Origin: Galbibacter orientalis DSM 19592
GTDB taxonomy: Bacteria; Bacteroidota; Bacteroidia; Flavobacteriales; Flavobacteriaceae
Length of the DNA stretch: 64,000 nt
Direction: 5' to 3'
Assembly (NCBI RefSeq): GCF_000260115.1
Contig: NZ_JH651379.1
Span: 2,645,466-2,709,465, forward strand
Shown here: positions 10,336 through 64,000 of the stretch, piece after piece
Layout of the letters: every line of letters begins with the position of its first letter
Position numbering within the stretch: the stretch's first letter is position 1
The notes under the pieces: generated by a model
Databases searched by the model: none
Seen by the model: only the letters and a program-made list of their open reading frames with translations
Told to the model about the DNA's origin: nothing
Program-made: the position numbers and the translations under genes

Positions 10336-11133
10336 CTAAAACTTAATATTTAAAGTTTCTTGTTTTAGTACATCCCCTTCATAATATTCTGCAATCCACT
10401 TTCCATCTTTTTGATAAAGAAATCCGTTCTTATCTTTAATAAGATAATAGTTAGGTTGCGTTGTTTTAGTAATTTTAAAAACAACTTTTGGAGTCATATC
10501 TACTAATTGAAATCCTGTTGCAGTTGGTTGTGCAAATAAGGTTTTAGCATCTGTATCTACAGTAGTTGCAGCTACTGGAGTAACTTGCTCTTGAGCCTGA
10601 TTTACAGTAGAATTTACACTCGAAGAAGCCACCGCCACAGAGGTAGTAGCCGCGGCCGCAGGAACTGTTGCAACTTGAGTTGGCATTTGTACTTGTGTGT
10701 TAGCAACAGGCTCATATTTATAATTTAACCCTCTTACAGACACAAAAGCATTTTCTATAGCTTCTTGGTATGCTTTTTCGTAATCCTTTTCTTTACTCTT
10801 TCCTTCATCCGATGTATAAACTATAGTTCCTTGGCAATTTTCTAGAGTAACATTAAGTTTTGTGGTAAACAAATTTGAATTATCAAGAATATTTGCTTTT
10901 AGTCCCAAACAAGGATTCGCCTGAAGATCGGCTGGCTTTTGATCATCATATATTGCAGTAAAGCCTTGTTTTTCGAATAAAAATTTAGTAAATGTATTTA
11001 CTCTATATTGATTCTCTTCTTTTAAGAAATCGAACTTTTTAGGAACTATTATATATTTATAATTGTTTACATTTTCTTGAGCAGACATAGAAATTGCTAT
11101 TAAAAACAATCCCAGAAATAATAATTTTTTCAT
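10336..11133 (-). CDS. Secreted hypothetical protein
   Basis: A 265-residue exported protein of unknown function. A signal peptide (MKKLLFLGLFLIAISMSAQ) is cut at about residue 19. The N-terminal part (20-130) has alternating hydrophobic strands. A low-complexity stretch rich in A, T, V and Q (about 145-190) looks like a flexible linker. The C-terminal 70 residues (VFKITKTTQPNYYLIKDKNGFLYQKDGKWIAEYYEGDVLKQETLNIKF) look like a small beta domain. No enzyme motif is recognised. It is the last gene of a minus-strand series, facing the tandem repeat array. Confidence 0.75.
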   Translation of the reverse strand: MKKLLFLGLFLIAISMSAQENVNNYKYIIVPKKFDFLKEENQYRVNTFTKFLFEKQGFTAIYDDQKPADLQANPCLGLKANILDNSNLFTTKLNVTLENCQGTIVYTSDEGKSKEKDYEKAYQEAIENAFVSVRGLNYKYEPVANTQVQMPTQVATVPAAAATTSVAVASSSVNSTVNQAQEQVTPVAATTVDTDAKTLFAQPTATGFQLVDMTPKVVFKITKTTQPNYYLIKDKNGFLYQKDGKWIAEYYEGDVLKQETLNIKF

Positions 11134-57618: not shown

Positions 57619-57691
<73 letters not shown>

Positions 57692-57702
57692 CTAGCAAAG
57701 AC

Positions 57703-57978: not shown

Positions 57979-59700
57979 ATGCCAATCGATATAGAACAAA
58001 AGTCAAGAGAACTTAAGGAATATGTTAGTGTTTATGACACTAAAACTTTTTTGGGAGATTTAAGTACTTTGTTATTAATGGTGCCTATGCAACATTTACC
58101 AGAGAGTATAATTGGTTTGGTAGCTCCTCAACGACAAATTTTCTATTTAGCAGGGTTACATTTAACCTCTGAAAAAAAAGAAAATGCAGGGTTAAAATAT
58201 CAATATACTCCAGAAGAATGGGAACAAATAAAAGCACTGCTAATAGAAATCGAACAAGGGTATGAAGAGCATTTTTATCCTACATCAGATACAAATATTG
58301 ATGATTTATGGCTAGAACAACGTAAAGTGGGATTGTTGTACCATTTGAATTATTTTAATCAAGGAGATTTGAATTATGAAGAGCAAATTATAGAAAGAAT
58401 AAAAGTTTACTTTACTCCGTTTGATAGGGAAATCAGAAATCATTTTGGTTTAAGTGTTGAAGATTTTATTTCGATCTACCTTTTTTTAGACGAAATGTTG
58501 CATCAAAAATTAAATACAGTATTTGCTAAGGAAGATGAGCATACTTGGGATGATATATCTATTGAACAATTTGCAGAAGGTATAATGAACCCAATAAAAA
58601 TGAAAGAATTGGCACCACCATCTTATATTAGAATGTCGGAAAGTGTTATGGATCCTGGTAAAAAATATCGATTTACTATTAAAGAACTGTCGGAACATTT
58701 TGATGAAGATATTATAAAAGCATTTGTTAGCATACTTAGTTATAAAAGACAGGTCACAGAATATCTATTTTATACAGAAAGTAATCCATATTTTAGCCAC
58801 CCTATTTTCGAAAGCGATGATGGTTCATATCAATCTATAGATATAAAACAAATTATTATTGCAATATATAATAGGTTGTTAAACTATATAACTGGTTTGA
58901 ATATCGTTGATGAAAAATTTTATAAGCATCGAGGAGTTAAATTGGAAAATAAAATTGTAAAGCTTTTCAGGTCTGTATTTGGAAATGATATAAAGGTATA
59001 TCAAGGCTACTATACCGAGTTAGGGAATGAACAAGATATACTTATATTATATAAAGGAATTGCTTTAATTATTGAGGCTAAAGCTTCAAAACGAAGAGAA
59101 CCTCGCTCTGATCCAGATAAAGCATATGACCTTATTAAAAAAAATTTTGATAAGGTTATACAGAAGGGATATGATCAAGCATATAGAGTAAAAAAGAGAT
59201 TTATTAATGGTGATACAATCAAAATATATAGCGATTTAGCTTTAATTGATGAAATTGCTCAAATAAAAACCAAGAATTATCATCACGCCTTTAGTTGTAT
59301 TGTTACCCTGGAAAGATTTGGTCAAATACAAACTGATTTAAATGATTTATTGGTAATTGAAGATGATGATGAATTTCCATTATCTATTTGTATTGATGAC
59401 TTAGAGGTGTTTCTTTTAGCCTTTAAAAAACGTGGTTCAAAATTCAGTGAGTTACTAAGATATTTTGATGCAAGAGAATATTTGCACGGAGGTTTGTTAT
59501 GTAGTGATGAACTGGAAATATGTGGTGCTATTATAACAAAAACTTTAACCGATAAAATTTTAAAATCTGATGAACCAATTAGAACAGATCCTGATCACGC
59601 ACAACTATTTGATGATTACTACGCAAAAGGACTAGGTTTTGAAAATGAAATCAATCTTGAACGTAAAACTAGTGGTAAATTTTTAAATATGTTTAGGTGA
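57979..59700 (+). CDS. PD-(D/E)XK nuclease-like protein in tRNA-proximal accessory region
   Basis: A 573-residue protein with no close relative that I recognise. Near its middle it has a probable PD-(D/E)XK nuclease core: ENKIVKLFRSVFGNDIKVYQGYYTELGNEQDILILYKGIALIIEAKASKRREP, with Asp353 and Glu366-x-Lys368 as the likely metal and catalytic residues, as in Mrr, NERD and restriction enzymes. The N-terminal 320 residues are helical (EEWEQIKALLIEIEQGYEEHFYP, FAEGIMNPIKMKELAPPSYIRMS) and may be a sensor or binding domain; the C-terminal 170 residues are also alpha/beta. No signal peptide. It is convergent with, and 14 bases from, the NTPase gene. A defence role is inference from context. Confidence 0.75.
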   Translation: MPIDIEQKSRELKEYVSVYDTKTFLGDLSTLLLMVPMQHLPESIIGLVAPQRQIFYLAGLHLTSEKKENAGLKYQYTPEEWEQIKALLIEIEQGYEEHFYPTSDTNIDDLWLEQRKVGLLYHLNYFNQGDLNYEEQIIERIKVYFTPFDREIRNHFGLSVEDFISIYLFLDEMLHQKLNTVFAKEDEHTWDDISIEQFAEGIMNPIKMKELAPPSYIRMSESVMDPGKKYRFTIKELSEHFDEDIIKAFVSILSYKRQVTEYLFYTESNPYFSHPIFESDDGSYQSIDIKQIIIAIYNRLLNYITGLNIVDEKFYKHRGVKLENKIVKLFRSVFGNDIKVYQGYYTELGNEQDILILYKGIALIIEAKASKRREPRSDPDKAYDLIKKNFDKVIQKGYDQAYRVKKRFINGDTIKIYSDLALIDEIAQIKTKNYHHAFSCIVTLERFGQIQTDLNDLLVIEDDDEFPLSICIDDLEVFLLAFKKRGSKFSELLRYFDAREYLHGGLLCSDELEICGAIITKTLTDKILKSDEPIRTDPDHAQLFDDYYAKGLGFENEINLERKTSGKFLNMFR

Positions 59701-59714
59701 TTCTCGTTACTTAC

Positions 59715-60652
59715 CTATTTTCTTCTTTTTTTATTTCTTCTACTATATTCCTTATTTCTTTCAATAATTTCTTTGATATAGTTTTGTATCGGTAATAACA
59801 TTATATCTTCAGGTAAGGAATTTATATAACCTAAAACTTCTTCCCATCTTTTGGCTCTAATCAAATCAGGGTCTTCATTTCCACTCCAAACTGCTTGTTG
59901 GTATATCCACCTTACCTTTTCAAAAACAGCCTTATCTTTATTTTTAATCAGATGAGTTTTTATAAAGCTTTCCTTTTCATTTGCGAATTTTTTATGAACT
60001 ATGTCCATAACAACCGTCAAGTGTTCAGGGCTGTTAGTATGTTTTATCATATATGTTCTTAAAAAAGAGATGGCTCTTTTACTTTCTTCAGGTTTTAATT
60101 GTTCGAAAAGATTTCCTGTAGGATGGTCACTTATTCCGTAGTAATGTTCTTTGTCAATAATATAATCTAAAATAGATTCCATTCTTTCTATTAAATCTTC
60201 ATTTTTCCATACAAAATTGTATTTATCGCGATGCTCTCTATTAGGTCTTTTAAGTTCCGATATACTATAATAGTATTCAAAGTATTCTAAAAGAAATTCA
60301 GGATAGAATATACATAGTTGCTCTAATCCTTCGCTATCATAATCAAAATGAGCTTGTGTGAAATCTTGCAACAAATATGTTTCTTTTAAAATTTTAATAT
60401 CATCAGTAAATAAATTTACATACTTTTCAAACAGACTACCATAAAAATAGATTCTCAACCCTTCTTTCATCTTTTTGTTCAAAGAAGATAATATCTTATG
60501 AAACAACTTCGAGTCTGCTTTTAAATATTTCTCTAAATTTTCAAAAGAAATGCTGAAGTTTTCAGAAGCCGTTTGTGACCACTCAACAATATCTATCGCT
60601 GTCTTATGATATAATTTTTTAACTTTAAGTCTTTCAAAATAGCATAATATTA
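59715..60652 (-). pseudogene. 3' part of large NTPase gene, severed by IS982 element
   Basis: The downstream fragment codes for about 310 residues (LCYFERLKVKKLYHKTAIDIVEWSQ...KEYSRRNKKRRK), rich in helices and charged residues, with no recognised motif. A start codon for this piece is supplied by the insertion element (MHNG, from 60665 inside the terminal repeat), so a truncated protein may be made. When the element and one TAATATTA are removed, this sequence joins in frame to the fragment at 61620-64000. It is probably the C-terminal, repeat-like sensor or effector part of the full protein. Confidence 0.85.
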
Positions 60653-61619
60653 ACCCGTTGTGCATTTAGAAAAAGTTGTGCAAACTGCTAAAATGCAGTA
60701 AATTGTAGTAACCACACTATAATTTATATGCACAACTTTCAAGCAAATTACGACAAAATCCTCAAGGTTTTAAAAGAATTGGATTGTAAAATGGATTATT
60801 TACATCAAATCCGTAAACCTAAATTAAGAGATAAAGAGCTTATAGCTATTGATTTAACATCAGAATATATGAGTGTTGATAGTGAATGCCAGCTTTTTCG
60901 AATGTTACCTGCTGGTCTATCCAGCAAAATAGAGCGCAGTGTCTACAATAGAAGAAAGCGTAAGTTGTTTTCTTTTAGAGAATCACTTCGCAAGGCATTA
61001 GTGAGAAAGTTGAATAAATCTGAGCATTGTTATATTGTTGACAGTATGCCGTTAGAGGTCTGTAAATTATCAAGAAGCGCTAGAAGTAAGATATGTAAAG
61101 AACAAAACTACAGTCTGCCCGAAAAAGGATATTGTGCAAGTCAATCAAGCCATTATTATGGATATAAATTACATGCTGTCTGTTCTGCTCAGGGTGTTAT
61201 CGAAAGTATGGATATTAGTCCAGCCTCTGTGCACGATATTAATTATTTAAAGGATATAAAGCATCAATTAAGTGATTGCATATTACTTGGTGATAAAGGG
61301 TATTTGTCGGCTGAATATCAATTGAATTTATTTGAATATCATAATATTAGACTTGAAACCCCTATGAGAACAAACCAGCATAACTATAGGGAGCAGCCGT
61401 ACGTTTTTAAGAAATCCAGAAAGCGTATTGAAACATTGTTTTCTCAACTTTGCGACCAATTTATGATTCGAAGGAATTATGCTAAATCTTTTGAGGGATT
61501 CAAAAACAGAATATTATCTAAGATTACGGCTATGACGGTCATTCAATATATAAACATATTTGAATTCAACAGAAATATCAATAACCTAAAAATCAATATT
61601 GCCTAAATGCACAACGGGT
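60653..61619 (+). mobile_element. IS982-family insertion sequence, 967 bp
   Basis: Complete element with perfect 17-bp terminal inverted repeats (ACCCGTTGTGCATTTAG at 60653-60669 and its complement at 61603-61619) and an 8-bp target duplication TAATATTA (60645-60652 and 61620-61627). GTTGTGCA occurs again near the left end (60675-60682) and, inverted, at the transposase start (60729-60736). It encodes one transposase. It interrupts the large NTPase gene. Perfect repeats, perfect target duplication and an intact transposase suggest recent insertion. Confidence 0.95.
60728..61606 (+). CDS. IS982-family transposase (DDE)
   Basis: A 292-residue DDE transposase. The triad is visible as YIVDSMPLEVCK (first D), ILLGDKGYLS (second D) and RKRIETLFSQLCDQF (E). 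The middle stretch GYCASQSSHYYGYKLHAVCSAQGVIESMDISPASVHDI is typical of IS982. The N-terminal helices hold KPKLRDKELIAIDLTSEYMSVDSECQLFRMLP. No frameshift or stop, so it is probably active. The stop codon lies in the right terminal repeat. Confidence 0.95.
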   Translation: MHNFQANYDKILKVLKELDCKMDYLHQIRKPKLRDKELIAIDLTSEYMSVDSECQLFRMLPAGLSSKIERSVYNRRKRKLFSFRESLRKALVRKLNKSEHCYIVDSMPLEVCKLSRSARSKICKEQNYSLPEKGYCASQSSHYYGYKLHAVCSAQGVIESMDISPASVHDINYLKDIKHQLSDCILLGDKGYLSAEYQLNLFEYHNIRLETPMRTNQHNYREQPYVFKKSRKRIETLFSQLCDQFMIRRNYAKSFEGFKNRILSKITAMTVIQYINIFEFNRNINNLKINIA

Positions 61620-64000
61620 TAATATTATATTGGTTTTTCTATTATAATCTCCTTTACTAATTGCCTCAAAAATTTCAAGAGATTCCTTTTCTTCAATAAG
61701 AAAATTTGAAAATGGCCAATACGGTATATAATTCACTTGATTGTTATCTTTAATTATAGTTTTTAATAATTCTAACCCTTTTTTAAAATCAATCCCAAAA
61801 ATGGAATTAACTGATATGTCAAAACTGTTTCCAGAGATACTCCATTCAGCATTTGTAGCCTCATATAAATATTTGTAATCTTTATAGAGTAATTCAGGTT
61901 CTTTAGAATATATAGAAATTGTATAAGCCTTTATTTCATTGTTCTTTTTTTCCTCATATATTTTATGATCTAATTTATCATCTAGTTCATATCTGTGAAC
62001 CCCATTTAATACCTGTCTGTTTAAAATTTTATAAAATTGATATAACTCACAGTTAAACGATGTTGAAAGTTCTCTAAAGAATTTATGATTAACCTTAGAT
62101 CTTTTACACCACCATATTTGTTTTTGTACATATCTACAATGTTCAAACATATTTGGATTTAATTTTTCATTAATGATTTTTAATATAAATTCTAAATCAT
62201 ATTTCATTAACTCTTTATTGTTATCTGGATGCATTGAAGCACAAGATTCTAATAATTCTAAAGACTCATTTTCATACGAATCAAAATGTGTAAAAACTCT
62301 ATTCCATATATCATCTCTTAATTCTTCTATGATTGTTCCTTTTTTGACTTCGTAATTATAAATTGATAAACTGTTACCATATATGGGTTTTACTTGTTGG
62401 AATTTATGTTTTAATAGCATTTTCCCTATTACATAAAACAATTCTTTCTCAAGTTGTTTTTCTTCATTTGCCCCTTTTAAAACAATATCTAATAAAGTTC
62501 TTTGTTTATAATAGCCATATTGTACATCTTGATAATCAAAACTTAAATATTCTTTTATTGTATAATGAAATTCACTTGCTGTTTCAGGATTACGTCTAAT
62601 AAATTCTAATGTAGCTAATAAAGCATTCTTTAGGTAGGTAGATGGTCTTCTTGAAAAATGACTTAATAAGCTAAATATGTTTCGCTTTTGTGATGAAAAC
62701 TCGTTAGTCTCAAAGTTAAATTTGTATTTATCAACTGATTTAGGTTCACCTTGAAGGCCTAACTTAAGCATATATTCAATTGTTTGGTCAGGTATGATAA
62801 ACCAAAACAATTCATAGAATTCTAATAGATTAATTTTAGAGCTACGCGCAAAATTTAAGAGCACAGATTTAATTGCTTCTACTACGTTTTCGTGATTAAA
62901 GCTATTGTTAGCAGATATTACACAATCTTTAAATCGATAATCATATTTTGGAAAATAATTAAATAGTAATATCTCAAAATCTAATGATTTTAATTGAAAA
63001 AAAGCTTTGTTAAAAAAATAGATACCTAAGTTTTGCTCTACTATTTTAATTTCTTCTTTATAGATACTTATCAATTCAGACTTTCTTAATAACTCGACAT
63101 TTGAAACAAAGTCATTTTTATTTAGTTTGAATGTCTTGAGTAAATTATCAAAATCAATAGAATTCATATTTACTGAACTGAAGAAGGTAATCAAAGCCAT
63201 TGTATTAATAACATTTTCATTTTTTAATTCGCTTGAATCCTTTAAGAAAGTTTTAAAATAAAGGTCAAATGCGTCTTCTGTGTTATTAAGAGCTGACATA
63301 TCTTGATTAACGCCATCAAGTTTAGCTAGCATAAGAGCAAGTCTAACATTTCCTTTTGCTAAATCTAATATTTTATAAAGTGAATCTTTATTTTTTATAC
63401 AAAAGGGTTCGGTAGTTAAAATATCTCTTAATTCCTCATCTTTAAGTCTTTTGATACTTATAGTTTCGAAATCAAATTCACTAATGTGTTCAGAAAAATC
63501 TGTTGCAGCATAATCTCTAACAGTTACAAGTATTTTTACTTTTTTGTAAGAACTATTTTTTAAAAACTGTAAAATCCGTTCAAAATGAGATATTCTATGT
63601 GCATCATCTATAAAAAGAATGGTTTGTGAGCCTACCGATAGCTTTCCTTTTAGATCATCTACAATTGAATCACTGTCAAATGAATTTACCCAAACCATTG
63701 TGCTAGGTTGTTCTCTTAGTAGTCTATCTAATACTTCAACACATAATTTAGATTTTCCTGTCCCAGCAGGGCCAGAAATGATTGAAATATGATGCTTATT
63801 GATTAATTGAAAAACTTCCTTGATTTCAGTCTCTCTATGTAGAAATGGGTTGTTTAATGGTGTAGCAATTTGTTTGCCAGCACTGTTATAGTTTTTGACA
63901 AATGTTTCTAAAGAGACCCACTGGGATTTATCTAAAGGGATGTCTAAATATTTATTACCTATGTCTGTATTTTGTAATAAAATATTTCTCGCAATACGAT
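61620..64000 (-). pseudogene. 5' part of large STAND-like P-loop NTPase gene, cut by IS982 and by the window edge
   Basis: The frame is open from the window edge to the insertion site, about 793 codons. The segment near 63760-63810 (minus strand) reads ISIISGPAGTGKSKLCVEVLDRLL, a Walker A loop; 25-30 codons later TILFIDDAHRISHFERIL is Walker B, and KILVTVRDYAATDF then KRLKDEELRDIL...LAKGNVRLALMLAKL fit the later ATPase and winged-helix parts of STAND or AAA-type NTPases. A helical, repeat-like region follows. As it stands the protein ends TRCAFRQY in the IS, at 61593. Upstream of Walker A, NPFLHRETEIKEVFQLINK is a typical lead-in; the N-terminal effector or sensor domain is outside the window. 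The ATG at 63698 is internal, after the Walker A motif. Confidence 0.85.

Follow-up and report, generated by a model that had tools for sequence, protein, structure and literature searches.

The antiviral protein Avs4 (AVAST type 4) is ordered as an effector domain, a STAND nucleoside triphosphatase (NTPase) and a C-terminal sensor. Avs5 proteins (AVAST type 5) are reported to combine an nSTAND3 domain with helical C-terminal repeats and to carry a Sir2-like effector (PMC12931631). Here, we describe a gene of Galbibacter orientalis DSM 19592 whose predicted fold is closest to these two proteins, and which is split by an insertion sequence (IS) of the IS982 family. Gene and element lie at the end of a 64,000-nt stretch of contig NZ_JH651379.1 (positions 2,645,466 to 2,709,465; G000:C1:2645466-2709465 in our numbering), referred to below as the window; the genome comprises 4.5 Mb in two large contigs. 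Our preferred reading, to which we assign a probability of roughly 0.7, is that a copy of the element struck the last quarter of a single-gene, Avs-like anti-phage sensor and most likely inactivated it.

An IS982-family element within a single gene

Members of the IS982 family have inverted ends and are flanked by short target duplications in the range of 7-9 bp. The element in the window belongs to this family on both counts. Its transposase matches the IS982 model of NCBIfam (E 9.2e-70, 235 bits, cut-off 130) as well as the DDE domain of Pfam, its 17-bp inverted ends are perfect, and an 8-bp duplication, TAATATTA, stands on both sides (Table 1). An earlier note on this DNA, made from the letters alone, had described a 967-bp IS982 element with perfect terminal repeats and a duplication on either side, and all of this is seen. 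The transposase model, the inverted ends and the short duplications are shared with ISRa1, from which the element differs in having ~70% DNA identity over 48% of its length. None of the 14 plasmid records that match the element covers 80% of it.

The element and one copy of the duplication together amount to 975 nt, which is divisible by three, so that the two pieces of the gene stand in one frame. The upstream piece begins at coordinate 64409 (L011:9875), past the end of the window, and its last residues and stop codon (61593) are supplied by the element. For the downstream piece, an ATG within the element's inverted end (60665; MHNG) offers a start codon, and the piece aligns with the C-terminal end of full-length relatives. 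The insertion point falls at about residue 930, where intact relatives are ~1240 aa long. That the element gives a stop to one piece and a start to the other had been anticipated in the earlier note and is seen in the open reading frames (ORFs); its joined frame of 1102 codons agrees with the coordinates, and the N-terminus that it expected past position 64000 is accounted for by the 938-aa upstream piece.

A scan of genome contigs with the upstream piece, by a method sensitive to close relatives only, revealed one locus, in Winogradskyella undariae CCUG 63832 (L034), where residues 1-937 are matched and the best segment is 87% identical. The homologue there is a single 1240-aa ORF (L034:8001-11723) without the element. 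The element's two 300-nt flanks, searched separately, map to L034:10491-10790 and 10783-11082; they share 8 nt, which equals the duplication in length.

Additional relatives were found in three genome searches, whose totals count the window's own genome and whose matches exclude it. The upstream piece yielded two full-length matches among 99 genomes (G061, G034); three weak matches to the Walker region alone (G002, G035, G076; E ~1e-4) were excluded from the counts. The downstream piece alone yielded three matches among 395 genomes of the class (G319, G483, G291), inside frames of 1233-1267 aa. A family alignment, searched against 395 phylum genomes with a threshold of E 1e-20 or better, yielded seven matches, of which four (G291 again, G516, G540 and G524) are full-length. 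Full-length matches therefore occur in 2/99, 3/395 and 4/395 genomes. Two contigs of IMG/VR carry ORFs of 1239 and 1240 aa (L066, L067), and their neighbours, as read from the ORFs alone, resemble phage genes.

Altogether there are 14 distinct relatives; in 11 the gene is a single full-length ORF, and in three it is broken. In G547 (L053:6277-10069) two overlapping frames are split near residue 615, which may be a sequencing error; G607 (L054:5802-7560) retains decayed pieces, and G267 (L055:8033-8410) an N-terminal remnant near an AbiD/Abi_2 gene. The uninterrupted homologue that the earlier note proposed to look for is thus present at 11 distinct loci, and its other test, homologues in which the two parts are separate genes, found none of the 14 split at about residue 930. 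This count, together with flanks that map to one ORF with an 8-nt overlap, rules out two genes that merely adjoin. The gene is one ORF, and an IS982-family element has inserted into it.

Table 1. Features of the locus (window coordinates; a dot marks features without a strand)
Feature	Position	Strand	Remarks
IS982-family element	60653..61619	+	967 bp; inverted ends 60653-60669 and 61603-61619
IS982 transposase, 292 aa	60728..61606	+	NCBIfam NF033520; Pfam DDE_Tnp_1
Target duplication TAATATTA, copy adjoining upstream piece	61620..61627	.	
Target duplication TAATATTA, copy adjoining downstream piece	60645..60652	.	
Upstream piece, 938 aa	61593..64000 in window, ORF start at 64409	-	Pfam nSTAND3 at residues 195-331
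Downstream piece, 316-aa ORF	59715..60665	-	End of C-terminal region
Walker A GPAGTGKS	63750..63773	-	G, G, G, K invariant in 7 rows
Walker B ILFIDDAH	63597..63620	-	DDA invariant in 7 rows
tRNA-Met, likely island attachment site	57619..57692	+	

Relation of the broken gene to Avs proteins

Judged from its sequence, the NTPase domain is of the STAND type. Pfam nSTAND3 (PF20720) matches it with 33.2 bits (cut-off 27.2), the same model exceeds its cut-off in four of the four relatives scanned, and the broken gene is the best nSTAND3 match of its genome. The Walker A and Walker B motifs singled out in the earlier note are both present, their key residues are invariant across the seven rows compared, and so are a TVR-x-Y segment and a GN-x-R motif.

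The predicted structure of residues 1-570 (pLDDT 79, pTM 0.71), which spans the presumed effector and the NTPase, is closest in fold to Avs4 and Avs5. Its top match in the PDB is Avs4 with the portal of phage PhiV-1 (8dgf, E 6.1e-12; 619 alignment columns), followed by EfAvs5 (9jap, E 9.4e-10; Avs5 is also represented by 9nc9); NLRP3 (7alv) is matched at E 2.6e-8. The order of effector, STAND NTPase and C-terminal sensor would likewise be that of Avs4. Differences from both proteins are nonetheless considerable. Identity to Avs4 is 13%, and the Avs4 chain has ~1540 residues in the structure versus ~1240 aa for this family. The Avs5 effector is reported to be Sir2-like (PMC12931631), whereas the N-terminus here appears PDDEXK-like, and the Pfam scan found no Sir2 match in the window protein.

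For the first ~170 residues, no Pfam family scores better than chance. Nine positions are invariant in 14 of 14 rows (F19, G41, G52, P54, D55, E69, K80, D84 and C88), and in the model D55 precedes a strand (56-59), E69 lies on a strand (65-71) and K80 on a helix (77-88); the model is poor at the loop around G41. This placement of D55, E69 and K80 follows the layout of PD-(D/E)xK nucleases, from which we infer a PDDEXK-like effector. The long C-terminus is probably helical. If the protein works as the solved Avs proteins do, a phage component would be recognised by its helical C-terminus, the nSTAND3-type NTPase would respond by switching and ATP-driven assembly, and this would free the PDDEXK-like N-terminus to cut DNA; both nuclease activity and phage sensing are presumed functions. 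An insertion at about residue 930 would leave the upstream product with effector and switch, and without the last quarter of the presumed sensor. The setting favours the same reading, with AbiE-type and mobilisation genes nearby and with relatives on two contigs of a viral collection or next to AbiD/Abi_2 or Mrr-type genes.

Several results weigh against this reading. The TM-scores are low, at 0.27 to the Avs4 and 0.25 to the Avs5 chains, and support the view that the protein works like an Avs protein rather than that it is a member of Avs. No model of Avs types 1-5 in PADLOC matches over most of its length: the window protein matches Avs2 over 64 residues only (E 1.5e-4), the best value among seven family members is E 3.7e-6 (PDC-S73) in one of them, and two of the seven have an Avs match at E up to 0.01. 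PADLOC gave no Avs4 match in the window protein or in these seven. At the N-terminus, the best Pfam nuclease family is BsuBI/PstI, at chance level (E 0.031 in 1 of 14 rows), and two positions beyond E69, where the catalytic lysine is usual, 14/14 rows have T or S. The nSTAND3 model is of limited specificity, with matches in 14 of 14 control genomes and over its cut-off in seven; a RarA-like AAA gene of the window genome also lies just over the cut-off, and the broken gene's own score is modest. For the C-terminal region the model, which is nearly entirely helical, is of low quality (pLDDT 62, pTM 0.40). Finally, no phage record matches the protein at E 1e-5. Two further searches gave little: a profile search of PDB sequences reached a best E of only 0.015, and a search of viral structures returned one phage protein named NLR-like and then mostly clamp loaders.

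The strongest competing account, which we nevertheless consider unlikely, is that the protein is a STAND switch with some other role, such as a transcription regulator or a factor in island or plasmid maintenance, and that its breakage has nothing to do with immunity. To our knowledge no member of the family has been tested, nSTAND3 is a broad model, and many relatives, by the reading of their ORFs, stand alone among ordinary genes. The family is also found on plasmids, where 13 Leptospira records match at least 94% of the protein at ~28% identity, 11 of them in one piece (one Aulosira record, covered over 23%, is excluded from this count). Against such a role stand the top fold matches, which are the antiviral Avs4 and Avs5, the patchy spread of full-length copies in the three genome searches, and the company of abortive-infection and restriction-type genes, AbiE-type in the window genome and AbiD/Abi_2 or Mrr-type beside some relatives. 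Among the Leptospira plasmid matches, 11 are annotated as hypothetical protein and two have no annotated gene under the match.

The proposal can be extended from this gene to its relatives, at odds that we put slightly below even. They may form a distinct Avs-like type, namely single-gene sensors of ~1240 aa that join a variant PDDEXK effector to an nSTAND3 switch. Islands, plasmids and phage-like elements would have carried these sensors through Bacteroidota and Leptospira, where they would have been lost time and again, by IS insertion, frame breaks or truncation, and swapped as individual genes. Beyond the nSTAND3 domain, none of our scans with Pfam, NCBIfam and PADLOC gives the family a name. 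As far as titles and the beginnings of abstracts tell, no paper among the matches listed was to the point on IS inactivation of defence genes, and a search on Winogradskyella and IS982 found no paper.

Age and effect of the insertion

The window genome contains 20 complete copies of the element; a truncated copy (in L023) and a 30-bp remnant were excluded from the copy counts. The insertion is recent, because 19 of the 20 complete copies agree at all 967 bp, the remaining one being short of a single base, and because all 20 are flanked by AT-rich duplications of 7-9 bp. No complete copy is present in six further genomes of the genus: three are without a match and three have partial matches only, the longest of 471 bp at 72%. 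The insertion into the NTPase gene is best read as part of a recent IS burst.

Both pieces of the gene are still open, and the ratio of nonsynonymous to synonymous substitution rates (dN/dS) against W. undariae is low in each, 0.108 in one (926 codons) and 0.126 in the other (308 codons). These low values fit a divergence that is mostly older than the break. The gene is therefore recently broken, as the earlier note had proposed, on the strength of the identical copies and the open, constrained pieces; that it was once functional, which the same note had called probable, is upheld by this constraint together with the intact relatives.

Loss of function in the window strain is likely. It is highly improbable that the split gene still works, with the downstream piece made from the element's ATG and the two pieces associating, even though both pieces are open, that ATG is in frame with the downstream piece, and dN/dS is low in both. 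The constraint is mostly older than the recent insertion, and none of the 14 relatives is divided at this position. Moreover, the core of Bacteroidota promoters is TAnnTTTG, and no exact copy of it occurs when the final 250 bp of the element are read outward. More improbable still is an assembly error, or an insertion in only part of the sequenced culture: 20 complete repeat copies are spots prone to misassembly, but the genome lies in just two large contigs and every complete copy has its own matching 7-9 bp duplications, which misassembly would not produce.

The element may have interrupted other genes of this strain. At four of the 20 sites, the broken gene included, a matching open frame continues across the element (at least 60 codons before and at least 30 after it; a raw count without a shuffled control). 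The three further genes that seem to be interrupted in frame encode a TonB-dependent receptor, a protein with TPR repeats and a FUSC-type membrane protein (L014, L016 and L019; G000:C1 near 1331487, 870750 and 1835457), each with a family match in at least one piece. In addition, AAA-type ORFs of 249, 243 and 272 aa, which we take to be IS21-type helpers, recur with equal scores at 4, 4 and 2 places in the genome. Their repetition suggests further multi-copy elements, and the genome seems to be rich in IS.

Genomic setting and probable exchange of the gene

Directly upstream of the gene lie an AbiEii-like nucleotidyltransferase and an AbiEi_2-like protein (L011:9878-11693; window coordinates 64412-66227), and further upstream the Pfam and NCBIfam scans identify SSB, RadC-like, BfmA and MobB proteins and a short MobC-like ORF. 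The last of these (L011:15328-16320, 330 aa) matches only positions 177-416 of a 655-position model, and the island's mobilisation module looks truncated. The AbiE-type pair, of the toxin-antitoxin kind, also precedes the intact gene in W. undariae. There, the gene is followed by a tyrosine integrase, beside a 46-bp identical match that covers the last 44 bases of tRNA-Met.

The window has a tRNA-Met at the corresponding place, and a 573-aa gene where the integrase would be. This gene (57979-59700, + strand), between the tRNA-Met and the broken gene, has no Pfam, PADLOC or NCBIfam match; a VIEAKA-like stretch, seen by eye, hints at a nuclease fold. Only one other relative of it, short and decayed, was found among 199 genomes of the taxonomic family. 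On the window side an integrase occurs 34.5 kb further on (L012:17686-19047), and a second copy of the last 12 bases of tRNA-Met is absent from the 94.5 kb read. In three congeneric genomes, the genes that come after this tRNA-Met have no match in the window region, and among these three only ORFs of L065 match the W. undariae integrase. At that locus (L065:9289-15605), integrase-like ORFs after tRNA-Met are accompanied by weakly Wadjet-like JetC and JetD, JetC being matched over 44 residues only. The tRNA-Met looks like an integration hotspot, and the sensor gene would be cargo of an island at this site.

The gene and its neighbours differ in their similarity to W. undariae. Counted per 60 codons, third-position identity is 40-67% in AbiEi, 50-58% in AbiEii and 60-88% in the NTPase pieces, and its mean (L011:5181-11693 versus L034:6185-11723) is ~54% for the AbiE-type pair and ~75% for the upstream NTPase piece, the step falling where the AbiEii-like gene gives way to the NTPase. 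This difference suggests a later sharing of the NTPase than of the genes next to it, as if each cargo gene could be swapped individually. A conserved three-gene system of AbiEi, AbiEii and NTPase was also considered and rejected, both on the NTPase's differing history and by the reading of ORFs, in which the pair is seen only here and in W. undariae and not by other relatives.

IS disruption of an accessory gene is everyday bacterial genetics, and it carries a warning for annotation, as the two pieces look unrelated while the element between them goes unrecognised. The interest of the locus lies in the little-studied sensor family to which it leads: from a broken gene one arrives at a set of STAND proteins that cohere as a family and are good candidates for Avs-like antiviral defence, and a close intact relative is available in W. 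undariae CCUG 63832, a named strain whose gene makes the proposed role directly testable.

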